From assembly GCA_963930775.1 (NCBI GenBank), contig OZ005689.1, positions 15,004,923 to 15,068,922 of the forward strand: 64,000 nucleotides of DNA, in the 5' to 3' direction. Positions within the stretch are counted from its first letter, which is position 1; each line of letters opens with the position of its first letter. The position numbers and the translations under genes are program-made. The notes under the pieces are model-generated. The model ran no database searches, had not been told where the DNA came from, and worked only from the letters and a program-made list of their open reading frames with translations. Positions 4,577-58,200 of this stretch are shown one piece after another. Source of the stretch: Cliona cf. orientalis. Lineage: Eukaryota; Porifera; Demospongiae; Clionaida; Clionaidae.

Positions 4577-7500
4577 ATGTCGCACCACATATTCTTTACA
4601 GTTTTCTTACTTTCTGCTGTTTACTTTACTAACATATTCTCAATTTGTGAGTACTGCAAAAAGTAGAATAATAATAATAATATTATTATAGTGGCTATAA
4701 AATTAACTAGTCTTGTTTGATTTGCAGAGAACCAATTTCATAATACTATTATTATCTTTTTTTTCAGTTTTTGGTAATGCTTGCAAAATTTAATGGATAT
4801 TTTTGTTGCAGTTCTTCAGCATCCTGAGTCACAACATGTGCTTATTGGAGGCAATGCAACCTTTTCGTGCAGAATTCGTTATGCTCAATCAAGCATACGT
4901 TGGGAGGAGCTCTTCTCCGATGGAGCAATAAAAACATCGCTCTCTCAGGATGAAGGGAATGGTGTTTATGTTCGAGAAGATCGGACATCAAATGATGAAT
5001 ACAATTCAACATTGACTATTGTAATCACCTGCTCTAATATACAAAGATGGAATGGGACAAGTCTTCAATGCTCTGCTCGTACTGGCAGTGGGCGACCTCC
5101 AAGCAATAGAGCCACTTTGGCAATCCATAAATCTCTCAGTAAAACTCAGTGTATTATATCATCTACACATACATCTATGCTAATATACACATTGGTCTGG
5201 TATGTGAGTAAAATATGCAACAGGGCCTGATCCGGGAAGGAGGTGGGTTCTTGGATAGCCATGGTGACCTTCATTGTGATTTTTTCATGTCAATGACATT
5301 GTAGTATTATTAATCAATCATCCCCCCTTGTTTACTATAATATTTTCTACATAGCTGATTCCAGAAGTATACCTTCTGGATCGCTACCTCAGAGTCTGCA
5401 GATTATTATGATATCAAAATTAATTATAATTAAAGGGTCGAGAACCAGAGTGGCCTAACCCCAAATTGAATATGGGAAATTGTCTAAAAAGCTCAAAAAT
5501 GGACTAAAAACCAAACACCCTACTCTACCAAATCACTCAAATTTTCAAAAAATTAATGTGAATTTCTGTTGCTCATGAAATGTATTTTGAACAGGTTTTC
5601 AAGATTAGGGGGGCTAACTCGACATTTGTGGCTTAGGCCATTCTGGTTCTTAGCCCTTCAATTATTTCTCATTATAGGTATTATAATTATGTGATAGCAA
5701 AGTTGTTGTGGGGAAGTATGGGTAGAGTGAGGGGTTGCTATTATGGTAAAATTTTGGTCCATGCCAATTTGAAGTAGTGCTAGTCACGTACACCTTCAAT
5801 TTTGAGACCTTGTTTGCACATGCATTGACAAACATGTATAATTATTATTATAACATGCATTGCATATACAATATCATGCCACCAAACTGCAATAAATGCA
5901 AGATCGCATAGCTACATGATATGTACAACAGTACTGCAGGAGATTTCACAGTATACATATTATATAATATATCTTGTTTAGATTATCACTGTTTTCATCA
6001 TCCGAAATGTATTAAGAAACTTATACCTCCCAAAGGCAATTAATTTTGATCTTTGTATGAAAAGATCAGAAATCTCCAGGACATGTATGTGGTCTTGTGT
6101 TTGTTGCAGTTTAGCGGCATGTATGCATTGCATAAAATAACTATGCATGTTTGTCAATATAATATGATTCCCAAACCAGTCTTGCATGAGCTAAAAGTGT
6201 TCCTGTCAACACTGTCTCTAGTGTCTTATCTGCTAATGGTCAATTCTTGGCTGTAGATACATAATTATATTACACTGCCATGAGCATTACTTTTACTACT
6301 AAGTCGTTATTATCATAGGACCTCTCCCACCATTGAACTTGCTGATAACTCCCATTAACACAAGTGTCCTGCACTTAAGCTGGAACAGTACTTCTACATT
6401 TCGCTGGCCCAATTATCAAATTGATAGGTTCAGTGTGAATGTCACTAACGTCAACAGCTCACAAAGACTCTTAGAGGTTTTAATGGGATTTCAGAATTCA
6501 ATTGAAATTGGGAGATTCAATCTCAGTATCGATGTTTTGCAACCTTGTACTAAATTGGAGTTCAGTGTCTCATCTATCAGTGCCACATATGGAGAGAGTG
6601 ATCCTAGTTTCATCATCGGAGTATTTCCTGAAGGTTTCTATATAATATAATATTACAGTATAATTCACTATAATTATTATACATTATCTACTGTAATAAT
6701 ATCATAATAATCTAAAAATCAATGCATCATGCATAATTATAATAATATTATTAGACTGTAATATCTTTTTTTTTGAAAACCTGGTAAAGGGTTAAACCTT
6801 GATGTATCAGCGTAAGACTGCCAAAAAGTGCATGTTAGCTTTCATGATAGGAATAACCATTGTAGCTAATTAATACTAATAATAACATTCTCACATGATT
6901 ATTAATAATATTATTTATCTTTAAGTTATTACTATTATTATTATGTTGCTCTTTCATGCAGCCCCTAATGAAATTAACATCATCAGCACTGAGGTGTACT
7001 TCCATGCCAATGGTAGTCCACTTGTTTATCTGGAAATACAAGTTTGTAGACATCATTATTTTTTTGAAAGTATACTATAATCGTATTACATATCATAGCT
7101 GCCTTCAACTGTGTGCACATGTCCTTATCAAGACATAGGTTATTCAATTGTGATCATAGAAGGGTTGCTATCAGATGTGATTCAAAATTCAACATTTCAT
7201 CATCGAGGATCTGGCAGCGTTCAACACTGGATTATGTCTGGGCTTAGCAACAATAAAAATTATTCAGCATGGGTGATGGTAGGAAAATCTGAAGCAAGTA
7301 CTAATTTTGGTAAGCCATCCAATTAAAACAAAGCATTGGAAGTAGCTGAGGACTCACTCTCAATCATTCAATGTCAGTTAAATGCATGTCAAGTGAATGA
7401 TAATTGTATATATTGATGAGCTTGAACACTATAGCTGCTCCCTCATCCATTCTCTGTTGTCGGTGCATGTATATTAATTTTAGTACTAACAATAGATGTA

Positions 7501-12500: not shown

Positions 12501-15500
12501 TTGTTTGAGAGTTGCTTAACTACAATTATGCAACATGTCTCCAGTCACATTAGGATGTATTGTCTCATTAATTGCATGAATTAGACAGCAAGACAAATTC
12601 ACAACTCAGTATTAAGCAAAAAGAAGATGTAAAAGGCTGCCACCAGCCCTCACAGATCCAGTCTTTCTTTGCTTGCTAAAATTGGACAGCAGGGCAGTGC
12701 AAATAATCGTTAAAAATGAGAGAGAGTTCACTATCGAGGCTGAAGTTGAGCCAGATGAGCAGCAGGTCTCTCCAAAGCTTGCAACTCCAACAATTTACTC
12801 AAGACATGATTGTGGTTCGCCAGAAGTCTTCCCCATATGGGGGGACAGAGTCAACAGTCGTCGGTCAAGGGTGATGAGCAGGAAGTTGTTCCGTTGTTCA
12901 GGCTGGAGATATTCAGCCAGATCCAGAGATATCTGATGACGGAAGGCAGACATCTGGCAGAGGTGCCTCAGAGGATAAATCTGGGCATCATTCTAAAAGG
13001 AAGGACAGCCCTAATGTAGGATCAAAGCCTGCGGCTAAAACAAGGAAGGTGACAGATGTGGAGCCTGAATCATTCTCTACCAATGCTGACTCAGATGTGA
13101 GTGAAGCTGATGAGGGAAATGATACTGACTCTGCTGAAGAGTCAGATGAGTGGTCCCCCTCCAACAAGGAAACAGACTCCTTCGTAGAGTTGGTGTTTAG
13201 GAAAGAGTTGATAAAAGCATAAAAGGATAAGCTGCTCAAGGATTATCCTAAACCATCCACTAATGCTATTCATACATGTTCCAGTTCTGGATTTTTCTAT
13301 CAGAGCCGCTCATTACCAGATTCAGCCTGCTGATTCCCAGTTGTAGCTACAAGATCCAGAGGTCTGTGTACATGTTGGATGCAGCTAATCCACTGATAAA
13401 AGCGTTTGAGCTTTTACAACACGAGAAAGAGGAGATTGATATTTCTGAGGTATCTAAAGTGGTCAGAGCGTCGCTTCACCTACTTGGGGGTGCAATTGCT
13501 CACTTGACAACTCAAATAAGGAAAGGAGCTCTCAGTAAAATGAAGCCTCAATGGGCTCACGTCGCCAAAGAGAAGTTTCCGGAAGCCAGGCGTAATCTGG
13601 AATAAAGTTAGCTAGGCTTAGTTTTACAGCTGTTTAGCACGTTACTTATCGATCTTACGAAGTTCAGCCCTCACTCTTTGGTGAAGGCTTTGAACAAGTT
13701 GTAGAGAGGAGAGCCAAAACCACAATAACACTAAAGAAGACTGCTACTCTTGGTGCGTCAAGCACACCTCAAAAACTTTTTTCGTCCTTCCTATCAATCC
13801 AGTCGGCCCTTTCGTCAAGGCACCACTTGAAATCAGAGCCGTGGGTGGCTACCAAAATCAGACGGCGTTTTTGGGAGGCTCGATGGTACATCCACTCGAG
13901 GAAGAGCAGCCCCAAGGTACGTAGAAGGAAGACCCAATTACAACCGAAAAGTGCGGCACAACAACTAGCAGCACCTATATCCAGGAAGATATATATGTCA
14001 ATCATCGGCCTCGTGCAAAAATAGCAGGACGACTCCGTCTCTTTATATCCAACTGGTAGCAGCTAAGCAGCGACAGTTGGGTACTGCCAGCTGTCTTAGT
14101 TATCAAAATATAGAGTTTCTGCAGTGTCTGCATCAGGGAAAGCCTCCCATTCCTCATCAGTTTGCAGACGAACAAGGTCGCACCATCTCAAACAAAGTAG
14201 CTACAGGCATTACTAGACAAAGGGGCCATTGTGGAGTGTACAGGAGATACAACACAAGGAGAATATATATCCTGGTCCCAAAGCCGGGAGGGAAATTCCG
14301 ACCTGCCCTCAATCTCCGAAACCTCAATGAGTTTGTAACACCGTATCATTTCAAGATGGAAGGGTTACATTCAGTACACAATCTGCTTCAGAGAGGTGAT
14401 TACATGGTAAAGATTGACCTGAAAGATGTGTACTTTACCATTCCAATCGGCGACTGCAGTCGGAAATTCCTCAAGCAGATTCATGTGGAACCAAAGGAAA
14501 CTTCAGTTTTGTTGCCTTCCTTTCGGTCTATCATCAGTCCTTTGGGTATTCACAAAGGTATTAAGACCAGTGATTGCATATCTCCGTATGCAAGGTTTGC
14601 ACATAGTTGCATAATTAGCCTGGACAATATTCTCTTAATGTGCCAATCACAATCACTTCTCAGGGAACAGACTTCCCTAGCGCTAAACATCCTTCAGGTA
14701 TTAGGCTTTGTGATCAATTGGGAGAAGTCGGAGCTAAAATGATATTATATCTTGAGTTTCTGATCGACTCGTTGCTCATGCAAATACTCCTTCCAGACGA
14801 GAAAATTAAGAAGCTAAATAAGCAGGCGGGTTCTCTTCTGTGAAAGAAGGAATTCTCTCTACACAGTCTTGCTTGATTTATTGGCCTGGCAAGTTCTACA
14901 ATCCCAGCTGTATGGCCGGCTCCACTATGGTACAGAAATCTTCAGATGTTGAAAATAAAGGCAACTCCACATCAAGGAGTCTTACGATGCCCTGGTGGAG
15001 ATTTCACTGGCTGAAGAGGAAGTACTCGTCTGGTGGAAAGAGAAGCTACGGGCTTGGAATGACCGCCAATTGCTGGAGCTACAGCAGAGGGTCTATATCG
15101 GAAGCGATGCATCTACCATCGGTTGGGGCGCGACCCTAGGAAAACAGGAAACAGGTGGCTTCTAGTCAGAAGCAGAAAGAATAATGCACATAAATTTAAT
15201 GCTTTGGAATTGTTGGCAGCAAAATTTGCAGTCCAGGCTTTCCTAAAAGCATGTTTTCCTCCAGATCCCCTCCTCATTGTGCTCAGGACCGACAACTCAA
15301 CTACAGCTGCATAAACAAGATGGGAGCAATTAACACGCTCCAATCTGCTCAACAGCATCACCAAAAGTCTTTGGGTTGGGTATGGTGTTTGAAAGACACT
15401 TCATACTTCATGCAGAACACATCACTGGGGCAGAAAATATCTATGCAGTTTGGCAGTCGCAAAACATCATAGACCGAAGCGATTGGGCACTCAATAAGGA

Positions 15501-15856
15501 AATCTTCCGACAACTCTATCTTCTGTGCGGACCAATCACTAAAGACCTCTTCGCATCAAGACTTGAATTTAATGCACAATGCCAAAAGTTCTACAGTTGG
15601 TTTCCAGACCCCAACGCAGTGGCCACAGACGCCTTTGCTCAAGAATGGGGCCAGCATCAACTTTGTTTTCTAAACCCACCATGGATCTTGATGGCCGGGT
15701 GTCTAGCCCTCGTGAATCAACAAAACGCAACGGCAGTGGTGATTGCTCCATTGTGGCCAAGCCAATCATGGTACAGTCAGCTATCAGGCCCGTACGCAGC
15801 CTTTCTCAAACATGGGGGCATGGCTCAGATAGGTATGTTGTGGGCATTAGCCCACA

Positions 15857-16190
15857 GCCCACCTGGGGGGGGGGGGGGGGGAGGGGGGGGAGAGGTCTGG
15901 GGGCATGCTTCCCCAGAAAAATTTTGAAATCATTTTAGACTGAGGCATTCTGACAGTGATTTACAATAAATTATGGGCTGATGCTGCTAGCTACTAGACA
16001 AGCACTATGTACACTGGCTATGCAATCTATTGCACATCCGGTGTGCGTTATTTGGAAAACAACACTTCATTTTCCGCATGTAAGTTACACCAGGTATATT
16101 TCTAGTGTTATGCTAGGTGGCCAAAAAAGGGGGGTTCAGACGAACCCCCTCGAACCCCCCCCCCTCCCCCCTGTGTACGGGCCTGGCTAT
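15857..16190. repeat. Nested element with G/C-homopolymer ends
   Basis: A long G run (GGGG..AGGGGGGGG) at the left and a C-rich right end (CCCCCTCGAACCCCCCCCCC) enclose about 270 bases unrelated to the surrounding DIRS sequence. The outer bases CAGCCCACC and, reversed, CAGGCCCGTACACAG suggest short inverted termini. No target duplication could be read and the boundaries are approximate. Confidence 0.45.
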
Positions 16191-36775: not shown

Positions 36776-37299
36776 TGTTTTTATACTTGTTCCTGTTCTT
36801 TTTTTATTGCACCAATAGTGCATTTTATCAATGCCATCTTATATGCAACTTCTAATTAAGTGGACAATGGGAGGTGCCGAAGTTTCGTAGCCACGCCTCT
36901 TACTAACTTGCGTTCATATTCCTAGCAGGCCGCTGATAAAGTTGAAGGCTGTTTTAGGCGGCCCAAGTAGTGATGAGACTCTTCCGTTTAGGGAGAAAAT
37001 CAAGTTCTAAATTTTATTGTTAGCAGCAGCTACTCGGTATAGCTAACTCTGTGATCCAGTGTACGTTACCGTTCCTCGAGCCTTGCGCCTTCAAGAGTCC
37101 GACGCCGCTGTTATGATATCCCGGTGTATGAGGCTAAGTTCCAGCGGAGCATTAGCGCTGCACGCGCTAGTGAGTAGCTCGCCTATGCCTAGCCTAGCGC
37201 CTTACCGCTCCCCGAGCCTTGCGCCTTCTTATCCATGATCGATCCAGCGCGCTGCTGCACGCGCTTAGCTCGCCTCGGCCTCAGGTCGAGGATCGAGCG
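36776..37299. other. GC-rich island at the transposon target, left half
   Basis: It is much richer in CpG than its surroundings and contains a tandem pair of related segments (CGAGCCTTGCGCCTTC near 37078 and 37216; GCTGCACGCGCT near 37158 and 37253). The last nine bases, GATCGAGCG (37291-37299), are the target duplication of the transposon that follows. Its right half lies at 46135-46390. Confidence 0.5.
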
Positions 37300-37387
37300 T
37301 AGCCTCGTACCCAGGCCGCTCCCACGTTTTCAATGTTGCACGCAGAAAAGGGGGAGGGCCTGGGAGATAATGTCACGTGCGTGACGT
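37300..37387 (+). repeat. Left terminal inverted repeat of the transposon
   Basis: 88 bases beginning TAGCCTCGTACCCAGG and ending CACGTGCGTGACGT, perfectly complementary to 46047-46134. The inner end carries a CACGTG palindrome. Confidence 0.92.
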
Positions 37388-37615
37388 CACATCAGTGCCT
37401 CATGAAAAGAGCGTGGGTGCAGGAATATCGAATGTTGTGGTCAAGCCACGTGGCCACGTGGGGCGTGGCACTATTGCATGCAACGTTGGCTGCATGAGTC
37501 CGCGCGCCTTTGCCGCGAAGTCTCATTTTTTTGTGATTACGTCTCTCTTGGTATTTCTTGGCTACTACACGGGCCTGACGTGTCTAAAAGAAGATCAAGA
37601 TCGTCAACGTCGATC

Positions 37616-39911
37616 ATGGCTCATCGCGTAGGCAAATTCTTGGCAAGAGATGGGCGCTGGCTCTCGAAGCTGGTAAGTGTTTATTTGATGTTTATAGAGA
37701 TATTAAAGAGATATTGTGAGATTGAGTATTAAATCGTAGCCATGGACCATCATCTCCTATGTACCAGAGGTATCGATATCATAGGTAGACAAGTTATTAT
37801 GTTGTGCCGCGGAGATCGCTAGTGATCGTGGTATATTAAATAGTCGTAATTAGTGACCTTGGTTTAGGCGGTAAACACTTTTTTAAATTTCTCGTGACTC
37901 TGTCAGTGAGTCGGTATGAGGATCTGTGGTCGCAGTTGTCCGCTATCAAAGCCATCAAGCAGGCCTACAAATACAGTGCAGTCACTCTGCTGGGTCAGGC
38001 TGAAAGCCACTATGCAGTCGTACTTTGGATATTCCGATTTCAGGCCTGGTCAGTTGGAAGCTCTGCTTCCTGTGGTTCATGGAAGAGATGCTTTTGTATA
38101 AGGATGCCTACAGGTGGAGGAAAAACACTGTGTATGTTTCTTCCTCCATTAGCTATGAGTCCCACTGCTATGGGGCTCATAATAAGTCCACTTATTGCCC
38201 TGATTGATCAACAGGTTAGTATACTCTTCATGTATTATGAGCGACCGTGTCGATTTCTTGGCATGTATGCATGTGCAATACTTGATGCATATCAGGTTCA
38301 GCAACTCAGACAAGTGGGTGTTAGTGCAATTCATGCTGTGCGCACAGATCAATGTCAAGATGTTTCAGTGGGAAAGTATCGTTTTGGTGGGTCCATGCCA
38401 TACCATTTGTAGTCAGATGTTGCATAATATAATAATACAGTGTTTATGTCACCTGAGACTGTACAACTGAAAGCATGGAGGGATGTACTATCTTGTACAC
38501 TAGTGAAGGAGAGGCTTGTCTGTGTTGCAATTGATGAGGCTCATTGTATAGCTGAATGGTCTGTTGATAAATTCATATGTATTTAAGTTTTTTAGTGGGG
38601 TAATTTCAGGGGGAGTGATTTCAGAACTGCTTTCCACAAGCTAGGAGGGTTGCGATCCCTGATAGATGCACCATTTATGGCACTCTCCGCATCGGCACCC
38701 TCACAGATACAGGAGACCATCATCGAGACCCTTTGTCTCCGGTCACCTGATATAGTATCTTGTGACTTGAATAGAGCAAACATTTTCCTGTCTGTGAGCT
38801 CTATACTTAGTTTGGCTGTAAGTATACATATGCACATTGTTGTACAAAGTACATGTAGCAATGTGATGTTATATCTAACTTTTAGCGTGATCTGCACGAC
38901 CTTGCTCAATCTCTTAAGACCATCTCTGTTGCTGATATCCCGAAGTGTATTATATACACAAAAACTAAGGATGATGCATGGAAGGTGTACACTTTTTTAC
39001 AGCGGGCTGCTAAGAAGAAATGTTATGTCGACATGTACCATGCCAATTTGAGACAAGACACAAAAGCAATAATTCATGATAGGTTCTCTAAGCCTAATTC
39101 TGAGTTAAAATGCCTGGTTGCTACAGTTGCATATGGAATGGTGTGTTGGTATCGAATGATTACATACAGTATGTAATGTCACTTAATTGTATGTTGGTGT
39201 ATAGGGTATGGATATACCGGATGTGGAGATGGTAATAGTTTATGGTACACCAACAACACCAATAGTTTATGGTACACCAACAACACTAACTTTGCTCTAT
39301 CAGGTATGCAGGATGATAATTGTTGTCCTAATTTAAAAATTGAATGATCATAGCTTTTTGGTCGAGCTGGGCGTTCCGGTGGTGAAGCAAGAGCTCATCT
39401 TTTTGCCTCCAAAGTTAAGCAGTACAAGGACGAGTCACTGAAACAGTTTGTTGAGAACACACAAAACTGTCGACGAAAGGGTCTCCTGGATGGTGTAGGT
39501 GGCTCTTATGAGCGAAGAGATAGCCTTTGTTGTGATTTGTGTTCCACTGGTGGCTTTTCCAGTAGGTTAGACATTTTGCAGCCTGGTGAGCAGCCCAACA
39601 AAAAACGGCGACAAGTTGTTCACACTCTCAGTAAGAGTAAGATGAAGATATTACAAGATAAGCTTATTGAAGAGAGGGAGAAAATACTCACAGAGAGACC
39701 AGGGTTTGGCTTTCTTGGTTTAGATAGCATCTGTCCTGATGTTACCATCGATGAACTATGTAAACAGTCTCGATACATTTCATCCGTCAACGACATGCAG
39801 TTGTTTGGTATAAAGCCCAAGTTTAAGAATAGATTTTTTAATATAGTAAAGTCAGTGGTGGAGCCTGAAAATCCATCTCAACTTTCACGTCCCAAACGAC
39901 GACATCGTTAA
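37616..39911 (+). CDS. RecQ-like superfamily 2 DNA helicase of the transposon
   Basis: Exons read: 37616-37671 (uncertain), about 38018-38214, 38296-38386, 38441-38558, 38610-38817, 38886-39140, 39205-39303, 39354-39911. RecQ motifs in order: motif 0 SYFGYSDFRPGQLEAL; motif I MPTGGGKTL; Ia SPLIALIDQQ; KYRFVFMSPE; motif II DEAHCIAEWGSDFR; motif III ALSAS; IV CIIYTKTKDDA; V VATVAYGMGMDIPDVEMVI; VI LFGRAGRSG. It should unwind DNA with 3'-5' polarity using ATP. A basic tail follows (PKRRHR end). Oddities: the frame shifts at about 38099, between DAFV and RMPTGG, so this copy is probably dead or has a sequence error there. A 27-base perfect-but-one tandem duplication at 39234-39287 adds nine residues before motif VI. 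The start codon is not secure. Confidence 0.85.
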
Positions 39912-40052
39912 TAATCATTATTATTTTATCATTTCTTTCATGTCTGCACATGTACATGTACATATTCATTGATAATGCATTTACTGGCGTAATTATGGGT
40001 ATAGTGAAGTTCAAGCGTACTGGTACACAGGAGATCTTGGTTCAGTGTAAGG

Positions 40053-42877
40053 TCAAATAACGTCTGCAATTTCATAGTCCAAGTCAATATTGTCCATGTT
40101 GTCATCTGCCGTATCTTCATTTTCCACATCTAGATCACACTCTTCTCTTCCAGTCTTGGACAAGATCTCTTGTACCCAGGAAGTATTGCATAGCTTCTTG
40201 TACCCAGAGTCTGTTGGATCCTTGAATGCTGGTGTATTTCTGTCAGGTGAGTGAATTGTGACAGTTTTATCAAGAAGATGCTCGGCTAGCTTGTTAATAT
40301 CTTTTTCAGCTTCTCGTACGGTGTGTGCAGAAGACTGGTGGCACTGGAACTCCTGATCTGTCTTCTTTGCAGCTTCCATGAGAAACAGTGCACACATTGA
40401 TACATCTTCAATATGTTTGTGGGTAAGGTTTCCCATTGAGGATTTGAGTGCTTGTTTCACAACCCTGAATGATTACACAGGGGTAATCCCAACCTCATTA
40501 AACAATGCTATTCACAATTCACAAGAATTAATTATCATACACTAACATACTAACATACACTCACAGGTTATAATGTTCCATCATATGATCCAGTGGTTTT
40601 CCCCTTCCTGACTTTCCTTCTATGTTGACGGTTCTGTTGTGGATTGCTATGTACGAGATGTGCTTGGGAAAATCAGCACACAGATGAGTTAGCATATGGA
40701 CACATTCTGCTGCATAATTCTTTCGTCCTGTGGCAATGAACTTGGGAAGCCATAGTTTCCAGTGTCGAATTATGTGTGGACCATCTTCCCAACGCACTGC
40801 TTCTCGAAGATCAACATAGAGGAATGCCTGATGGAGAAATTGTAAGTGTAAATTATGTACAGGGTCAGTCAGCTAAGTCTTTCTGATGCTTTAGTGCGGA
40901 CAAAGCAATTCGCTCTGCAGTATCACGGAGCCACTGCTGTGTTTTCGGGTGGGGTATAGGATCTGAAGAACTCTTTAATCCTAACAAATGGCAGATATGG
41001 GCCTGTAGATGTGCCTTAAATGCATGTAGCACAAATTCTTCAGCAGTATTGAATACTTTTGCTGTCTTATCGACTTGTAACCTCCTAATTATCTCTCTCA
41101 TGTTGCATAATGATCCAGGTTGAGACGGAATTCCCAAAAATATTAGAAATATCACTTTGAGACACTCCCACATGAAGTGAAAATCTCCTGCATGTGCATT
41201 TATTATACATAATAATATTATGATAATGTGCATGTGTATGTTTCATTACCTGGTACTTCATTTGCCCAAAGTAACTTATTTTTGACCTCTGGCTCTGGCT
41301 GTACCCACAGTTTACAGCCTCTTATGACCTTGCATGTAAGCTGATCACCCACTACCACCTAAATGAATTATTGTGACTGTGATCAGTGACTGATATAGTT
41401 TTGTACATTATATTATTCACCTGATAAAAGCCTTTTAAATCTGCATCAGCCATCAGCTGCTGCAGAATTTCAATCGTTTCACTTTTGTATTTCTCGTCTT
41501 TGAACAGGATTTTCATTGGCACCACAACTGACTTCTCTACAGGATGGACTAGTTCTCTTGAAGGTACAAACTCTTTCAGATCTGATAATGACTGGAAGGC
41601 TGACACTAAGAATTCCATCACATAATGGGTGGCGTATTGTTGAAGGACAATTCCATCTCGATCGGTTGGGGTGAAATCATTGATTGTCAGTGACTGACGA
41701 GTTTGCTGTGCTGTCGTATCTTCCCAGTTGGTGGAATCAGGGACATATCTGATGTTAACAGCAAGACGAGATGTTGCATTTATCATGCTTGAATGGTGAT
41801 CTGAAAATGTAAGTACAGATTACACATATTATAGCCACTTCTGTGTAGCTGCACAGTCATGCACATGCCAGTGGGGTATATATTATTATTATTAAATTTT
41901 TTCTGCACACCTTCACGCTCGTGCCTAACCCTCTGACTCATGTTTAAGTTGTCATACACCCATATCCAATGATCCCTTTGAATGATATCATCATACATGG
42001 CTTCTGTTGTTAATTTCCTGAGGTAATTCCAAGCTGTCCAATATGATACACATATACCAGCATGATTTAGGACCTGTATTACCTGCAATTATTATAATAT
42101 TATGTATATCACAAATTACGGAGTTTGCAATTGTACCTGCTTGCTTGTTGCTCGAGCAATTAGCATATATGTTAGGAGCAGTTGCACTCCTAATACTCTC
42201 ATCGATCTGTTTTTAAACAGGATACACATGGAAGTAGCTGCTCTGAGCTCACTAAGACTGGCCACTTCTCCTTCTTCAACAGTACGTGTACTCCCAAGCG
42301 CTACAATCAGTTTGTACAAATCAGGAGCATGTGTCTTCAGTTCAGCAATGACACTATCAATGGAAAACACCTGAAACCTTTGGACTGAATTCGGGCCGCT
42401 GTATACTCGGCTGCTAGGATTCATGGTGGCTTGCATCTGGCTTTCCAACAGAGAGGGTGAGATACTTGAAGCCTGTTTTTGTTCAGACTCAATCATTGAT
42501 TGATGAAGTCGGGAAAGTTCCTCGTGGAGCCTCAAATTTTCCTGTTTCTGTTGGCGGAGTTCCTCTTGAAGCCTCTGGTTTTTGAGCTGAAGTGGTCGGT
42601 CCTCACATGATCCTACTACTACTCCCGATACAGGCTCTATACCAAGCACATAAGTGAGGGCCTTTTTCCCAAATCTCTTTCGCTCTGCTGATGGAAATGC
42701 TTCTTGAACAAGTTGCGAAATCATTGAGTGACTGTACTCTGATGATGGAAACTGCTGCCTGATTCCTTCCTCAATTTCAGAGAATTTCACTTTCTTGGTT
42801 GCACTAGGGCCTTCATCACTACTAGGGCCGGACTCTTGATAACGCTTCTTCATCCATTCTACTTCTCTGGAAGCCAT
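40053..42877 (-). CDS. DUF6589-type protein, candidate transposase
   Basis: Exons read on the minus strand: 42137-42877, 41911-42082, 41421-41800, 41250-41358, 40865-41187 (stop), which predict 574 residues. Two further exons of the same protein follow (40565-40827 and 40053-40464), but a TGA at 40865 and the lack of a usable donor cut them off, so this copy looks truncated. The N-terminus is charged, with a coiled coil about 95-145. The core resembles DUF6589: WVYDNLNMS, VVPMKILFKDE, VVVGDQLT, GDFHFMWECLKVIF, TAEEFVLHAFKAH, and downstream IIRHWKLWLPKF and HMMEHYNL. Asp291, Asp436 and Glu475 could form a DDE-like triad. DUF6589 identity is from memory of the family; the transposase role is inference from its place between the inverted repeats. 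Confidence 0.75.
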
Positions 42878-43617
42878 GATAACAAGCTCTACTACTTTTT
42901 TTTCATACTGAATACTGAATGTTTTTTTGCCTTTTTATACTAGTTTCCAGTGTGTATGATGTAATGGAGAATTCGATATTTTTAGTATCAATATTGCTGT
43001 GTATTAAAGGGAAATAATTGCCACTGTCATGCCACGGAGAAAAAATGCCAACTCATCGTGTGCGTGCATGCTCGCACAAAACCAATATATTTATGCAATC
43101 TATTTGCTCAGCAAATTTATTTCTGTAGCCTTTCGAGAAAAGATCACATTCTCATTAACTGCCATTACTTTCTCTTTCAGTATACTGCTCTGTCTATTGG
43201 GCCTCCTGGCCTCTACTGTTATTAAAGTTAATAATATTATAATATTAAATATATAAATCCTTGATATAATAATATCATATGTATCAACAGTGATATCGAT
43301 AATATATTATTATACGCCTGGCTAGACACGAGAATATCCAACTAGATAGTCCTTCACCTCGATCCGCCGGACTACTGTTGATAGACTGCGGCAGCTACTG
43401 GTAGTTGTACACCACGAAGATGGATTCATGTGAGTAGCGATGTTGCTCGAGTATTACCACAAAGATGGAGCGCCGATGTCATGAGAGTATTAAACGATGA
43501 TTCTAGTTTACCTGCAAAACGATAAATAATTATGAGGCCGTGCAGCGCAATCGCGATGGCGATTGCGACACGTACGTCACGTATACGTATATACCACAAA
43601 ATTTTTTTTTTTTTTTT
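42878..43617. other. Non-coding interior of the transposon
   Basis: No supported gene. It contains the upstream region of the DUF6589-type gene. A GC-richer stretch at 43340-43570 holds CACGAAGATGGATTCATGTG and ACGTACGTCACGTATACG. A T run at 43601-43625 borders the tandem repeats. Confidence 0.4.
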
Positions 43618-45430
43618 TTTTTTTTCAAGGCGACCTGAACACTAAGCAGAAAAAAAATTGTCCAAAAACCACCATTATAATTGAGCTGGGTGCATAGTGG
43701 AGCCATACAATGCAAGCAGGCAGCCTAAATTTCAATTTTGTCAAAAAGTTGGTAAAGGTCGTCACGTTTATGTGCGCGCGTGGCCCCGCCCCTCACGTAG
43801 CGCGTGGGCGGAAACATTGCAAACGCATGGCTTCCCTGTACAAACATATGGGGAAACTTCAAAGGGCCGTAACTTTGATTCTAAGGCGTGAATCAAAATT
43901 CCTGAAGGTCAAATTTCTGCATTCGATCCATTCTGCGCGCCGGTGCAAAAATTATGTCCCCAAGTGCTCCCAGTTCCCCCCTGAATTAATTAATTAAAAA
44001 TCTTTTTTTTTTTCAAGCAAGCCGATACACTAAGCAGAAAAAAATAATTGTCCAGAAAACACCACAAAGTACTGGTGGAATGCATATAGGAGAGCCATAA
44101 AATAGAAGAAAACTCCTACTAGAGCCCTAATCTCGCGCCCAGCCCCCTTTCACGCATGCGGAGAGAAGGGATCTGGCCAAGCGTGTATAGGGCCTGTATC
44201 GCCGAGGAATGTATGCCATCACATATTCATGGTGTGCGTGAATAAGAAACGCGAATAAATTAACATTCCTTTGGATACCAATGGTTATATTTCGTACGAA
44301 TATGCAAGCGCACAATTGCATTCTGTTCATGCCCGTGCAATCATGTGACTTGATCCATGCGTCCGATTGGCGCGCACTGTATGCTGCACCGGCGACATGG
44401 GCCCTATACACGTTTGGCCAGACCCCTTCTCTCCGCATGCGTGAAAGGGGGCTGGGCATGAGACAAGTAGAGCCCAGAGTATATGATCAGCATTATTCAT
44501 AATTGAGGTTCAGTAGCAGTGGCCCCAGCAACACACTATATACTTCCTACTAGTACTTAAGATCACCACAGCACACACACAAGGCTAGGGGAAAAGCACA
44601 AAATAATTTTAGTTATATTTCTCAGCTTTCCCACACATTCATGCATGCACAGTGTAAAACTCAGTAGCTATAGCTGTATTATACCACCTACCTGTCAGCA
44701 AAAAAGAGAGCTACTGTTGTGGTTGATTCTTCATCCATTCAGCAAGCCTCTGCATATGCTACCAGCTGCATGGTAGCTAGCCTATACATGTACTGGCCTA
44801 GCGATTTTCTAAATAACGCACACCGGGACTCAAAACATTGCAAACGCATGGCTTCCTATACAAACATATGGGATTACTTCAAAGGCCGGAACTTTAATTC
44901 TAAGGCGTGAATCAAAATTTCCCAAGGTCAAATTTCTAATTTCAACCCATTCTGCGTGCCCATATAAAAATTATCTCCCCAAGTGCTCTCAACCCCGCTG
45001 TGAATTATTTTTCTATATTTTTTTCTACTTAGTGTATAACTACTTAGTGTTTAACAAGGAGACCACACAACAAGCAGAAAAAAATTGTCCGGAAACCATG
45101 ATATAGTTGAGCTGGATGCTTAGTAGAGCCATACAATGCAAGCAGGCAGCCTATACTCCAATTTTGGCCAAATTGGGTAAAGGTCGTCAAGTCTATGTGC
45201 GCGCGTAGCCCCGCCCCTCACGTAGCGCGTGGGCGGAAACATTGCAAATGCATGGCTTCCTATACAAACATATGGGGAAACTTCAAAGGGCCATAACTTT
45301 AATTGTAAGGTGTGAATCAAAATTTCCCGCCATCAAAATTCTAGTTTTGACCCATTCTGCGTGCCCATGTAAAAATTATCTCCCCAAGTGCTCCCAAACC
45401 CCCCATGAATTAGATTATTTAATTATTTAA
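43618..45430. repeat. Three tandem subterminal repeats of the transposon
   Basis: Three related units of about 370 bases (about 43618-43995, 44005-45005 with an insertion, 45050-45415). They share ACACTAAGCAGAAAAAAATT, ATTGTCCAGAAAACACCA, ACATTGCAAACGCATGGCTT, GGGGAAACTTCAAAGGGCC and CCCCAAGTGCTCCCA. They lie only at the right side of the element and have no coding capacity. They could be internal transposase-binding or satellite sequence. Confidence 0.7.
44128..44467. mobile_element. 340-bp inverted-repeat element with 8-bp target duplication
   Basis: The direct repeat TAGAGCCC flanks it (44120-44127 and 44468-44475). Inverted arms of about 65 bases contain CCCAGCCCCCTTTCACGCAT and GCGGAGAGAAGGG. 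Eight-base duplications fit hAT or P-type elements. It is nested in the second tandem repeat, so it is younger than the transposon's own repeats. Confidence 0.8.
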
Positions 45431-45479
45431 TTATTTAAATTTGCTTTTTTTTTCTACTTGTTGTGTAAGTTGTGTAACT

Positions 45480-45992
45480 TGTTGTGTAATTTGGGAGGTA
45501 ATATAATAATGAATACAATGTAGACGCGGTCAAGCACAAAAATAAAAATTTACAAGTACAAAGCCGAGCAAACAGCACAATGTGTACATAAAACCAAAAG
45601 GTCAAGAGTTAAACAAAAAAAACAACGAATAAATTATGTAAAGAGTTAGCAGGAGGCTGAGAACCTGGCCTCGGAGGAGACAAGGTCAAGTGGAGGGGTG
45701 GACTGTTTAAAGGGGCGACCTGAGGCAGACCGGGCTCCACGGATACATTGAATGGAGGACCGCAGGAGAGAGAAAGACAGACTGCACCTGATCCAGGCCA
45801 TGGTACGACTGTAAGGAGTATCTCGCTTGGCAGAGATTAAGGAGGCGAGACGCTTATAACTCACAGATGCAGCATTACCTAGGCCACCGGTTAGAGACAT
45901 TATCAGGGGAGTAAAGGAGCCATGCTCGATTTCCCGAACTCTCTGTTCATATGCTCGTTTCTTCAGATTTTCATGTTTTCTATATACCACAA
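45480..45992 (-). mobile_element. 5'-truncated LINE fragment (reverse transcriptase C-terminus)
   Basis: A minus-strand frame at 45646-45990 gives 114 residues containing VREIEHGSFTPLIMS, GGLGNAASVSYKRLASLIS and LSFSLLRSSIQCIRGARS. This is the C-terminal end typical of reverse transcriptases from invertebrate non-LTR elements. A stop and about 160 bases of 3' untranslated sequence follow to about 45480. It lies just inside the right terminal repeat of the transposon. Only the last fraction of the LINE is present. Confidence 0.7.
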
Positions 45993-46046
45993 AAATGCAT
46001 GTCGCCCACGCGCACTAATTATACGTCGACCATATGTCGACCTTCA

Positions 46047-46134
46047 ACGTCACGCACGTGACATTATCTCCCAGGCCCTCCCCCTTTTCTGCGTGCAACA
46101 TTGAAAACGTGGGAGCGGCCTGGGTACGAGGCTA
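46047..46134 (-). repeat. Right terminal inverted repeat of the transposon
   Basis: Exact reverse complement of 37300-37387, followed immediately by the target duplication GATCGAGCG (46135-46143). Confidence 0.92.
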
Positions 46135-46420
46135 GATCGAGCGTTCGAGCTCGACTGGCGCCTGGGGGAGGGGGCGCTATCACATGACTTCACCATGGCA
46201 ACACATTCCGAGCATGCGCATTTTATTTCAAAATGGCGTATCAGACACACCCAATTATCAGTGCGCCGTACACACCCACTATTATGTAACTCAGGTCGAG
46301 ATAATGCCGAACTTGCGTGCCACTGCACTGCGCGCTACAAAATGGAGTGGATTTATACTCAAACTAAGATGAGCGATTAAGGCAGTCCTGAGCTAGCCCT
46401 GATAATGAAAAAGAAAGAAA
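46135..46420. promoter_or_regulatory. GC-rich island at the transposon target, right half
   Basis: GC-rich sequence with GAGCATGCGCAT, a CAAAATGGCGTAT motif (similar to the YY1 core AAAATGGCG) and CTCGACTGGCGCC. Joined with 36960-37299 it would form a CpG-rich island of about 600 bases that the transposon split. A promoter role is a guess; no gene start is seen beside it. Confidence 0.35.
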
Positions 46421-51531: not shown

Positions 51532-53244
51532 AAAGAAAGAAAGATTAAGAAATGGCCATTTTTTTGAACATCTGGTTCTGGCATATACAATTGATTTGAT
51601 GAATGATCTTGGTCTTATTAGATAGATAATTTGCTGGAGATTCTGATTTTCACACTTAGAAATTTTACAAAATTACCTATTTTGAGATATTTGGATATTT
51701 GCAATGTATTACATATATGGCATATCCGGGCCATCCCTACTTATAGAGTCTACCGACTCTATGATAATGCCTCCTCAACAGCATGAATCCTTACAGTGGG
51801 TGATAGTGGTACACTAAGGTATTTTCCCATAATTGCGCAATTTTATAGCTCATTAACTTCTACTTAGCTAGCTACTTAATATTAAATTTGTATAACATTG
51901 TTATTCATCATTTACCATGTTTATCATGTGTGTGCATGTTAATTGGGAGCACTCCGGATCCATTGAGACCACCCATACTACGATGGAGTGAACACAAAAT
52001 TTATTATCACACTCAATCCCATAATTGTATTAGTGTGCTAGGGGATGGATTCACAAAATTAATGTCCCCAGGAGTAGATAAAGAATAGCAGTGTTGAACT
52101 GCATTTCAGAAACTTGATGTCTGTGAAAAAATACCTAAAGGACCTCTCTTTAGTAATAATATTAAGATTTACTACATAGATGTTAAGCTTCTCTTATATG
52201 GAACACCCTTGGGTGACGATGCTGTCACCTATGGCACTCAGCTAGATGCTCTAGCTATCAGGCCCAACTCATCAAATAACCATTAATTGTAGCACTTGTA
52301 TACAAGCCCTAAGATTTTTCCATAGGAAAAAATTTCAGGACTTGAGTGGGGATTGAGCCCATATATAACACACTCACATCTCCGGTGCGATGCTCTACCA
52401 ATTGAGCTACCAAGTCCCTGGGAGCAAGGTGGTGGGGAGGAAAGGTATACAAGTGCTGATTCTTGGTGCCCATTACATTAGATGTTAAGCTGTTGTCTCC
52501 GCTTATGGGCCTTAATTGCATTGAACCGTCAACAGATTATTAGTCCTTAGACTAACTGGATAATTGAGAGGTGGGCATAGCTATATAGGCACTGTAATAC
52601 TATTATTATAGTTGACTGTAAGTTGAACCGGCTGCACTAAATTAGATTAAACGAGCCGGCTACCACAAGGAATGGCCACTAGTACGTATCATGTTCCTGT
52701 GCACTGTAACTGAACTGCAGAAGCATTTGTGCCCTTTGTCGAAAGAAAAAAAAACACAACAAAAAAACCATCGCCTAATTATTACTAATAGTCTAGTCTT
52801 TGGAATTCATCGGATGATCCATTAACAAAGCATGCGGTGATAGCTATATTTTTGGCACGAATTAAGCTCCACACAATGCGGCTAGTTTGTATGTCCATCT
52901 ACGTGTGTTGGTGTACGTACGAACATGCTCGATTGTACATAACTATTATATAATATACATAATGTGTGTCAGCTGTTTGATGAATGGGTTCTGGTGTACG
53001 CAGGTCGTATTTACGCTGGAGGATACATCTCAGCACTACCACATTCCTCTCCTCTTCAGTCCCTACGCCTACTCCACCTACAGGGGAAGCCAGCCCATCA
53101 GTGATAAACTCACTCACTCATCAGTAAATTTAATTATTTACTTCTGTCATGATACCACAATTACTTGCAGCATCAGTATCCCTTTCATAATCATGAAAAA
53201 ATAAATTTTGGGCAAAATACAGAATATTATTATTCTCTCAGTGA
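51532..53244. other. Upstream flank of cassette D
   Basis: 51771-52160 is a copy of the block at 25272-25730. 53160-53230 is the conserved 3' flank of minus genes (CAGTATCCCTTTCATAATCA). One tRNA-like SINE lies at 52336-52418. The plus-strand frame at 52887-53204 shows no domain. No gene is called. Confidence 0.45.
52336..52418 (-). repeat. tRNA-derived SINE fragment
   Basis: On the minus strand GGGACTTGGTAGCTCAATTG begins an acceptor stem and box A, then GGTAGAGC, an anticodon-like arm (TCGCA..TGTGA) and a weak box B, GGGCTCAATCC, ending CAAGTCC. The T arm and position 33 deviate from a working tRNA, and a TGAAATTTTTTCC tail follows, so it reads as a SINE head rather than a tRNA gene. Confidence 0.6.
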
Positions 53245-54985
53245 TTATTTTAGTATGACATATATTAAGCATATCAGTGAGCAGAATAGCAGTAACATTC
53301 TCTCCATTATTACTTTACAGCTTGAAGAAGTCATAGTCTCTTGATCCAGATCTGCAGCTATAATTACCCCGCGCGCATGCGCAAGGGGTAAAGTAATCGG
53401 TCGTGTCGTCGTCGTTGTTGTTACCCCGCGCGCATGCGCAAGGGGTAATGTAATCGGTTTTGTCTGTCGTTGTTGTTGTCGTCGTCTGTTAGCACAAAAA
53501 TCGCCAGATCTGGAGATCTAGGCGTCTGGGTGACTCGTAAGTACAGCATATCCGTCGATATCGTCAAAAAACTGGCTTCATTATGCTTCGAATCGTTTGG
53601 TAAGGTCCATGAGCGTCGCAAATACTGCATTTTGTTGGCCACGCCTATCAACACTACCCACCATGTGCTTTCTGCTCATGCGCATAACCTGGCACAATTT
53701 TTAGGTAAAGGTCGTCAACAGACTGCCGGTCACGAGTTCGAGCTGTCTCACATCGACTATGATCGACGCTGCAGCGCGCGCGGGGTATGTGCTCTATAGA
53801 GCTCTAGTTGTCGTTGTTGTTAGCAGAAAAATCGCCATATCTGGAGGCCTAGGCACCTGAGCGACTAGTAAGCACAATGAATCAGTCGAATTTGGCGAAA
53901 AACGGGCTTCAGTGTGCTTCGAATCGAGGGATATGGTCCACCAGCGTCACAAATGGTGCCTTTCTGTTAGCCTTCGTAACCACGCCTATCGACAGTGCCC
54001 ACTCAATGCATTATGCATGCAGGCCTTGTGCTTTCTGCTCATGCGCATAATTATGTACTGGTAAAGGTCGTCAATAATGCTAGTGGCACACGTTTGGCTG
54101 GTAAGCTATCCACTGACTGGAATGCAAAGCCCCATCGATTCAGAATGTAAGCTACCTGTATGTAACTAGTCTACATCTGGTGCAGAGAGAGAGAGTCAGT
54201 GATGTTTTGACTGATATCACCAAGAGCCCAATAGCTATTTAATAAAACCGAAGGCTCTCGGGGTCTATAAGCCTTTGATACAACCAAGCAGCAACAAAAG
54301 TAGATCTATAGATTGCGCAATATGCGCGCGGGGTATATGCTCTATAGAGCTCTAGTTTGTCTAGTCGTCTCTTGATTGCAATTGTATTTGGAATGAGGAG
54401 CAATAATGTTGTACCTTCGCGGATAAGGGAAACAGTAACCTGGGTCACGGCTTCTAATAAAGACAACACCTTGTAAATGTTCATGCATTTCTTCAGTCAT
54501 TTGAATGTTTATGCGATAAACACATTTATTATTGTCGATATCAACTTTCTTACGATTAGTGCTATCATTAGTGTATGAGATACTCTGATCTGCAGCAGGC
54601 TCGAATTCGTTGAGGGGGCGCCATCCTTCCTGTTTTAAGGAATAGTAAGTGAATTCAGCATGAGAACAATCAGTGTTTAATATGAGATTTGATGAATCAT
54701 TGTATTGATGAAGTTTTGAGTTGGTTGTCCAGACAAGAGAGCATGATGTTTCTGCAAAAATTAAATTATCAAGATAAATTAATATTGAGGTTTAAACCTT
54801 AAGAATTGCTATTATATATATATAAGTGGAGTAATAATATTATTAATAATATATTGCCACCACATCCTCATACTTGGCACTACCATGTATGTCATTAATA
54901 ATTATTTATGGAGCTAACCTGCCAATGATGCTATAGAGACAATCATTAGCAAACACAGCAGGGTGTTGGCACTCAAGTTCCACAT
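53245..54985 (-). pseudogene. Cassette D minus gene, split by a repeat insertion
   Basis: Exon 1 is 54919-54985 (signal peptide MWNLSANTLLCLLMIVSIAS..); exon 2 starts at 54751. The six-cysteine domain is complete except that ECNC/DCNC reads YNC. In the stalk (QETTRQT) the frame runs into an inserted element and stops at 54342, which predicts 158 residues without stalk or anchor. The missing end (ADLDQETMTSSSCKVIMER.., hydrophobic tail, stop at 53245) lies beyond the insertion. The host gene may thus make a secreted form or be dead. It is divergent with receptor D. The start codon context differs from the other copies (MWNLS versus MRDSS). Confidence 0.78.
53361..54353 (+). mobile_element. Composite GCGCATGCGC-bearing insertion in minus gene D
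   Basis: Two TTACCCCGCGCGCATGCGCA starts at the left (about 53364 and 53421) and two ACCCCGCGCGC..TAGAGCTCTAG ends (about 53771-53806 and 54326-54353) show that one family member lies beside or inside another. The second half (53806-54353) matches the insertion in promoter C. It interrupts the stalk codons of the minus gene. It has no protein of its own that I recognise. Confidence 0.72.
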
Positions 54986-55259: not shown

Positions 55260-58200
55260 ATGTCGCACCAGATATTCATTACAGCTTTCTTGCTCCCTGC
55301 TCTCTGCTTCACTAACATACTCTCAGATGGTGAGTACTGACATGCAACTGTGTATGCTAGTAGAGTCTTGCTTTGCTAATTTAATTTTTGTAATTTTTCA
55401 CTGATTAGCTACTCATTTCGGGCAATTCTTAATAAAATTAATGTATGACTTGTGTTTATTGCAGTTCTTCAGGATCCTGAGCCACAAAATGTACTTATTG
55501 GAAGCAATGCAACCTTTTTGTGCAGAATTCGTTTTAATCAATCAAGAATAATTTGGGAGCAGATCTCTCCTGGGTCAAATAAAGTAACACAGCTCTCTCA
55601 AGATGAAGGGAATGGTGTTTATATTTATGAAATCCGGACATCAGTAGAAGAACACTACTATAATTCAACACTCACTATTATAACCACCTGCTCTAATTCA
55701 GAAAGTTGGAATGGGGCAATACTTCGGTGCTTGGCTGATAGTGGCAGTGGGCGACTTTCAAGCAATAGAGCCACTTTAGCAATCCATGAATCTCTCAGTA
55801 AGACTTAGTGTTATTACTCATCTGCATAATTATACATCATTCTATGCTATTAATGTTATGCATATCGGTCTGGTATTTGCACCTTCAAGAAGGGCTCAGA
55901 AGCAAAGTGGGCTAACCCACAAATGTTGACTTAGCCCCCTGAATCTTGAAAACATGTTTAAAATGTGTTTCATGAGCTATAGAAAATTCAAAATTTTAGC
56001 AACTTGGTAGAGTACAATGTATGTATTTTAGTCCATTTTTGAGTTCTTTAGACAATTTCCCACATTTAGTTCGGGGTTAGCCCACTTTGCTTCTGTTAGT
56101 GAGCCCTTCATTAATTTATTATTATTTTTTGAGACCTTGTTTGTGCACACATTGACAAACATGCATGATCATAATTTTAATATGCAATGTGTATACAATG
56201 TCAAGAACCTAAACGCAACAAATGCAAGATCGCATACAAGTCACAACAATACTGGAGATTTCACAGTATTTTGTTTAGATTGTCGCTGTTTTCATCATCT
56301 GAAATATACTGAGAAATTTATACCTCCCAAAGGCAATCTGATCTTTGCATGCAAAGATCAGAAATCTCATGCAAAGATCAGATATCTCATGCAAAGATCA
56401 GATATCTCCAGTATGGTTGTCATGGTCTTGCATTTAATATTAATTTTGTTGCTGCTTATATAGCGGCATGTATGCATTACATAAAAATAATAATTATGCA
56501 TGTTTGTCAAAATGTGATTCCCAATCCAATCTTGTGCTGCAAGTGTTCCTGTCAACACTGTCTGGTGTCTTATCTGCAGATGACACTTAGCTATCTGCTA
56601 ATGGTCAATTCTTGATTGTAGATAGTACATATATAATATTACACTGCCATGAGCATTACCTTTAGAAATCACTAACTTAGTGATTTCTAAAGGTAATGCT
56701 ATATAATGGGACAAGTCTTCAGTGCTCTGCTCGTACTGGCAGTGGGCGACCTTCAAGCAACAGAGCCACTTTGGCAATCCATAAATCTCTCAGTGTATTA
56801 TATCATCTGCACATACATCTATGCTAATATAGCTACACGTCGGTCTGGTATGTGAGTAAAATATGTAACGGGAGTTGATCTGGGGGAAGAAGGTGGGTCT
56901 GGATAGCCAGAGTGGCCTTCACAGTAGTTCCTTCATGTAATGTAGTACAGAAGAGGCCCACCATTATCCCCCTTGTTTACTATGTGCAACCATCCCATCA
57001 GCCAGGTATAGTGTACCTTCTGGATCAGCATCTCAGAGTCTGCAGACTATTATGATATTATTATAGCTAGCTACATATAAATTTAGTTAAAGGTGTACAT
57101 GTATCACTCAATGTCTATTATAGAACTCTCTTTATCATCATGGCAAAATTGAGGGAGGAGGACATTTAGAGCCCCCTCCCCATTGTTTACACCAATAATA
57201 ATAATTATAAGTCTTAGATTATTATCGATGTATAATAATATACACTGCCATGAGTGCTACATTACTTTTAGAAATCACTAAGTCATGTATTGTCATCATA
57301 GGACCTCTCCCACCATTGAACTTGCTGATAACTCCCATTAGCACAAGTGTCCTGCGCTTAAGCTGGAACATTACTTCTACATTTCGCTGGCCCAGTTATC
57401 AAATTGATAGCTTCAGTGTGAATGTCACTAACATCAACAGCTCACAAAGACTCTTAGAGACTTCAATAGGATTTCAGAATTCAATTGAAATTGGGAGATT
57501 TAATCTCAGTATCGATGTTTTGCCACCTTGTACTAAGTTGAACTTCAATATCTCTTCAATCAGTGCCACATACGGAGAGAGTGATCCTAGTTTCATTATC
57601 AGAGGATTTCCTGAAGGTTTCTATATAAATATAATATTACAGTATTCACTATATTATTATAATAATTAAGCAACATTTCCACAATGATTATCATAATACT
57701 TAATATTATGTTTCTCTTTCAGCCCCCAATGAAATTAATATCATCAGCACTGAGGTGTACTTCCGTGCCAATGGTAGTCCACTTGTTGATCTGGAAATAC
57801 AAGTTTGTAGACATCTTTTTTTTGAAAGTGTAATAATTGTATTACGTATCATAGCTGCCTTCAACTGTGTGTCCTTATCAAGACATAGATTATTCAATCG
57901 TGATCAAAGAAGAGTGGCCCTCAGACGTGATTCAAAATTCAACATTTCATCATCGAGGATCTGGCAGTGTTCAACACTGGATTACGTCTGGGCTTAGCAA
58001 TAACAAAAATTATTCAGTAAATGTGATGGTAGAAGAATCTGAAACAAGTACTAATTTTGGTAAGCCATCCAATTAAAATAAAACATTGGAAGTAGCTGAG
58101 GATTCACTCTCATTCACTATATTATAATATTATAACATTATCATAAGTGCTATCTTTAATCAGTGATGACTATTATAGTAATAATATAACATTATTATTA

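Follow-up and report, generated by a model that had tools for sequence, protein, structure and literature searches.

A probable AcademH-type DNA transposon encoding a RecQ-family helicase and a DUF6589 protein in the sponge Cliona cf. orientalis

Results

Termini and target site of the transposon

Positions 37300-46134 of the analysed window, a 64,000-nucleotide stretch of the genome of the sponge Cliona cf. orientalis, are occupied by an 8,835-bp DNA transposon that carries a RecQ-family helicase gene and a DUF6589 gene, and that very probably belongs to the AcademH type. This assignment is made by comparison with the published description of AcademH. The two ends of the transposon are perfect reverse complements of each other up to base 89, where the match stops and the sequences diverge, and both outer ends are directly adjoined by the same 9-mer. 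The boundary features are the following:

37291-37299, left target site duplication GATCGAGCG, matching the right one (46135-46143) at 9/9 bases
37300-37387, + strand, left terminal inverted repeat of 88 bp, 88/88 bases against the right end
46047-46134, - strand, right terminal inverted repeat of 88 bp, 88/88 bases against the left end
46135-46143, right target site duplication GATCGAGCG, a perfect match to the left one

Terminal inverted repeats are usual in DDD/E transposons. As a null for their length, 20 windows of 64 kb were simulated by a first-order Markov chain derived from the window's own composition, and the longest perfect inverted repeat in these measured 15-17 bases, as against 88 in the real window; the chance that 9 bases placed directly at the ends agree perfectly is 4^-9, or 3.8e-6. 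The original observation of 88-base identical inverted ends with a perfect 9-base duplication was borne out to the last base. When the element was compared with the window by BLAST (E <=1e-5), no other copy of the ends was found within the 64 kb, nor did the window contain, elsewhere, an empty site in which the two flanks are joined. It is to be noted that two palindromic blocks inside each 88-bp end allow it to fold back on itself (-21.6 kcal/mol with DNA parameters, z -4.23), a fold that none of 200 shuffles equalled; these blocks may be putative binding sites for a dimeric transposase.

The RecQ-family helicase gene

The gene on the + strand consists of multiple exons with GT-AG borders and extends from about 38.0 kb to its stop codon. 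The motif names used for it (motif 0, Walker A and so on) are what we take these blocks to be.

37616-37672, + strand, possible short first exon from an ATG to a GTAAGT donor, a candidate read from the sequence, with a provisional join to the next exon
38012-38095, + strand, motif 0 block FGYSDFRPGQLEALLP, in a frame different from that of the Walker A block that follows
38098-38214, + strand, exon part with Walker A (MPTGGGKT), from profile match and exon model
38296-38386, + strand, exon with GT-AG borders
38441-38558, + strand, exon with the DEAH box (DEAHC), from the exon model
38610-38817, + strand, exon, from the exon model
38886-39140, + strand, exon in which Helicase_C begins, from profile match and exon model
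39205-39303, + strand, exon with an internal 27-bp tandem duplication, from the exon model
39354-39911, + strand, last exon, with the GRAGRSG motif, a RecQ-like cysteine cluster and a C-terminal tail (stop at 39909-39911)

Membership of the RecQ family was evident from TIGR00614, which scored the helicase from Walker A onward at 221.2 bits, above the curated cut-off of 219.8; inclusion of the motif 0 block raised the score to 250.1 bits, with the match starting at model position 3, and a single open frame reached 222.2 bits from model position 28. Both conserved helicase domains were recovered by Pfam, namely PF00270 (DEAD, 1.1e-16) and PF00271 (Helicase_C, 1.3e-16). Among solved structures the best match was WRN (1.1e-46), ahead of RecQ, RecQ1, RecQ5 and BLM, and the core of the element's helicase indeed resembles all five of these RecQ-family enzymes. 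It differs from bacterial RecQ itself, the model of which (TIGR01389) gave 191.8 bits, far under its cut-off of 640.2. It differs from the RecQ-family enzymes also in that no exonuclease domain was present in the scanned pieces of the element. The RecQ zinc-binding domain (PF16124) missed its cut-off of 25 bits, at 19.9 bits (E 0.0012) and 18 bits; cysteines suited to this domain are present when the sequence is inspected by eye. The tail gave a weak AGO_N match in Pfam, below the cut-off, and the single-sequence structure model of the last exon was unusable (mean pLDDT 42.5).

Since the motif 0 block lies in another frame than the Walker A block, the reading frame of the helicase is disturbed around motif 0, and for the 5' end of the gene the exon model is a possible, provisional one. 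The tandem duplication of 27 bp further downstream (39234-39286) is in frame.

The DUF6589 gene

The second gene lies on the - strand, convergent with the helicase gene, and its six exons run from 42877 to 40053, separated by introns that are short (54-110 bp) as judged from the exon borders.

42137-42877, - strand, exon 1, with the start ATG and a helical N-terminus, from the exon model
41911-42082, - strand, exon 2, in which the aspartate of YDNLN (about 41953-41951) is the first candidate acid, from the exon model
41421-41800, - strand, exon 3, from profile match and exon model
41250-41358, - strand, exon 4, in which the aspartate of GDQLT (about 41346-41344) is the second candidate acid, from the exon model
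40565-41187, - strand, exon 5, with a frame break near 40.87 kb (PF20231 at 9.7e-07 in the 5' part and 7.4e-21 in the 3' part)
about 40590-40567, - strand, codons of DHMMEHYN with a candidate third acid, in the 3' part of exon 5, from the sequence
40053-40464, - strand, exon 6, the last, with the stop, from the exon model

The spliced protein, with X placed at the frame break, matched PF20231 (DUF6589) with 178.6 bits over positions 3-410 of the 410 in the model, the cut-off being 27; when exon pieces were scored alone, two passed (74.8 and 28.3 bits) and a third stayed below the cut-off (19.9 bits). Thus, what had been predicted from the DNA at the outset, namely a DNA transposon with two convergent genes, one of the RecQ family and the other of DUF6589, was confirmed in each of these respects by the ends and duplication, by TIGR00614 and by PF20231.

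Pfam labels DUF6589 as a family of unknown function and gives it no transposase label. For the DUF6589 core neither a DDE family nor any other Pfam family was returned at E <=10, a level at which the HMMER filters drop most matches that weak; the whole protein had no relative in the PDB at E <=1 and matched none of the PHROGs families at E <=1. Weak Pfam matches under the respective cut-offs were seen to NUDE_C in the N-terminal exon (0.0027) and to Med28 and RB_B in the last exon. A single-sequence model of the N-terminal exon (mean pLDDT 56.9) predicted a long helix at residues 94-136, in which blocks 101-130 scored above 90, and this helix is probably a coiled coil. The aspartates of YDNLN (residue 291) and GDQLT (residue 436) and an acid in DHMMEHYN, some 230 residues further, are candidates for a DDD/E triad, a guess from one sequence; these acids may be conserved in fungal DUF6589 proteins.

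Of the two genes of the transposon, one is a RecQ helicase, which leaves the DUF6589 gene as the candidate for the transposase, a role that is likely by elimination and by anatomy.

State of the copy

The original prediction had allowed the element only two genes, which holds for recognisable full genes and fails to account for nested material, also present between the ends. The right third (43.6-46.0 kb) indeed contains nested repeats, a hairpin element and the remnant of an open reading frame:

43626-43997, 44833-45007 (partial) and 45055-45422, nested repeat, at most about 370 bp long, the copies 83-87% alike pairwise
44101-44480, nested hairpin element with arms of 74 nt at 44131-44204 and 44390-44463 (91%) and the 8-mer TAGAGCCC on each side
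45646-46014, - strand, nested open reading frame remnant of 122 codons, near the right end

Close to the three copies of the ~370-bp repeat are short inverted ends such as ACACTAAGCAGAAAAAAA / TTTTTTTCTACTTAGTGT. The hairpin may represent a small DNA element that is non-autonomous and makes 8-bp duplications. The remnant had no Pfam match, and we assume it to resemble the C-terminus of LINE-type proteins. As a rough estimate, the transposon would be nearer 6.4 kb if the nested material were taken out.

Overall, the element looks like a decayed copy of a known kind of transposon. With the frames disturbed in both genes and the right third full of nested repeats, the copy is probably not autonomous; the disturbed frames in themselves argue that it cannot move alone, unless they are errors of assembly. 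That the ends are identical speaks either for an insertion of fairly recent date or for homogenisation of the ends.

Other features of the window

Outside the transposon, an open reading frame pair was noted at 13969-15927 (+ strand), of which the first encodes a reverse transcriptase (RVT_1, 8.8e-08) and the second, which follows it, is weakly similar to Dam adenine methyltransferase (at 5.7e-05, under the cut-off); the pair looks like a DIRS-type retroelement. Many pairs of blocks longer than 250 bp and 76-91% alike, some of them inverted, occur at about 3.5-11 kb, 21-35 kb and 51-61 kb, and among such repeated blocks lie a weak Ig match (4778-5230) and a weak FN3 match (57211-57669); these blocks probably represent receptor-like genes of one local family. 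Together with the short introns of the DUF6589 gene, the cluster of Ig/FN3-like genes may point to an invertebrate host, perhaps a sponge. A stretch at 52338-52416 (- strand) was scored as tRNA-like by Rfam (37.9 bits) and was not called by ARAGORN; it is possibly a SINE derived from a tRNA. At 53364-53479 a 57-bp unit occurs twice in tandem, with a palindromic stretch, TTACCCC...GGGGTAA, seen by eye.

Assignment to AcademH and alternative readings

PMC10045372 distinguishes two lineages of Academ, namely AcademH, which has a helicase and target site duplications of 9 or 10 bp, and AcademX, which has a nuclease and duplications of 3 or 4 bp. The original description of AcademH is that of Kojima (2020, Mob DNA 11:15), the title of which names animals and fungi, and is taken here through PMC10045372 and PMC10799480. 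PMC10799480, a survey of fungi, names DEAD and Helicase_C as two of the helicase domains that derive from AcademH, KolobokH or Helitron.

Compared with these descriptions, the present element shares with AcademH its nature as a DNA transposon, its helicase (PF00270, PF00271 and RecQ family, the first two being domains in the list of the fungal survey) and its duplication length, the 9/9 bases of GATCGAGCG falling within the 9-10 bp of AcademH. It also has inverted ends (88/88), as is usual for a DDD/E transposon. AcademX would belong to the same superfamily as the element if the AcademH assignment holds, but differs from it by its 3-4 bp duplication and its nuclease, as against 9 bp and a helicase; no nuclease family was among the Pfam matches of the scanned pieces of the element. 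The pairing of genes had originally been thought to match no superfamily that could be named, and its novelty had been made to depend on there being no existing description of the family. Since AcademH, described in 2020, combines a helicase with duplications of 9-10 bp, and the element matches it by description, this claim of novelty falls, subject to a comparison of sequences with the AcademH entries of Repbase.

An unlikely alternative is that the DUF6589 transposases form a superfamily separate from Academ, which came by its RecQ helicase and its 9-bp stagger independently. In its favor, nothing in the literature searched equates DUF6589 with Academ, and a RecQ helicase occurs in yet another transposon lineage, KolobokH (PMC9587614); against it, both of the published AcademH features that could be tested, i.e., the helicase and the 9-10 bp duplication, fit the element. 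If such a distinct superfamily were real, the helicase would represent a convergent solution for long-stagger integration.

Much less probable is that the ends are those of a non-autonomous element, between which two unrelated genes came to lie by accident. The abundance of nested repeats in the right third and the disturbed frames of both genes would suit such a history, but the two genes occupy about 38.0-42.9 kb of the space between the ends, they are convergent with their stop codons only 141 bp apart, and a helicase paired with a candidate transposase is the arrangement of a described lineage.

Least probable of all, and effectively ruled out by its target site, is a KolobokH-like element with a Kolobok transposase and a RecQ helicase, a combination found in KolobokH and in Kolobok-1_CCri, the latter with RecQ on the complementary strand as in the present element, since Kolobok duplicates the 4-bp TTAA, as opposed to the 9-bp GATCGAGCG here, and KolobokH is stated to have been found in fungi only (all from PMC9587614). 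As the helicase and the 9-bp duplication fit AcademH, and Kolobok is eliminated by TTAA, the element was filed as AcademH-type.

Searches for relatives and for a published link

Relatives were sought in two collections, viral_contigs and genome_contigs, which are viral and prokaryotic. In viral_contigs, single-sequence searches, which reach close relatives only, gave two stretches that matched the pattern for the DUF6589 core and eight for the helicase, none of them confirmed, and no match for a 24-base piece of the end. A pattern match was obtained for 14 stretches of genome_contigs, of which two passed tblastn, both from Pustulibacterium marinum and covering 33 and 32 query residues. These two look like chance; one of them ran into stops within 53 codons on translation and was for this reason taken as such. 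PF20231 had no match in the Pustulibacterium marinum genome or in 14 control genomes, a result that does not show absence. Overall, no second copy of the element was found in the viral and prokaryotic collections.

The word DUF6589 was found in no paper of the literature searched, and the string PF20231 appeared only in PMC11502082, an optics paper judged by its listing. An explicit link between DUF6589 and AcademH was likewise not found in print, although it may exist in Repbase, in the original AcademH paper or elsewhere. Considering that the literature searched lacks the word DUF6589, the link may be unrecorded; thus, while the kind of transposon is already known, its connection with DUF6589 may be new to print.

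Discussion

The most likely mechanism for the AcademH-type element is one of which the products, i.e., the ends and the duplication, are observed, and the chemistry is what we infer. The DUF6589 protein would be a DDD/E-type transposase that, once bound to the 88-bp ends, cuts these and inserts them into the target with a 9-bp stagger, which gap repair by the host would then turn into the 9-bp duplication. The RecQ-family helicase would have an accessory part, the unwinding of DNA at the ends, at the target or at the repair gap in the course of transposition, and it may help to fix the long stagger. According to Kojima (2023, PMC10045372), the differing duplication lengths of AcademH and AcademX seem to be tied to the presence of a helicase or a nuclease, which suggests a role for the helicase that can be tested.

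As a transposon, the element merely adds a copy to a lineage already described. It is of use rather for annotation, as it ties DUF6589, a Pfam family of unknown function, to a helicase-bearing transposon. It follows that annotated DUF6589 proteins are suspect as transposases or domesticated transposases, and that RecQ-like genes in their neighborhood should be checked before they are counted among the repair genes of the host. Should the helicase truly bear on the length of the duplication, the Academ lineages would offer a natural comparison in which to test it.
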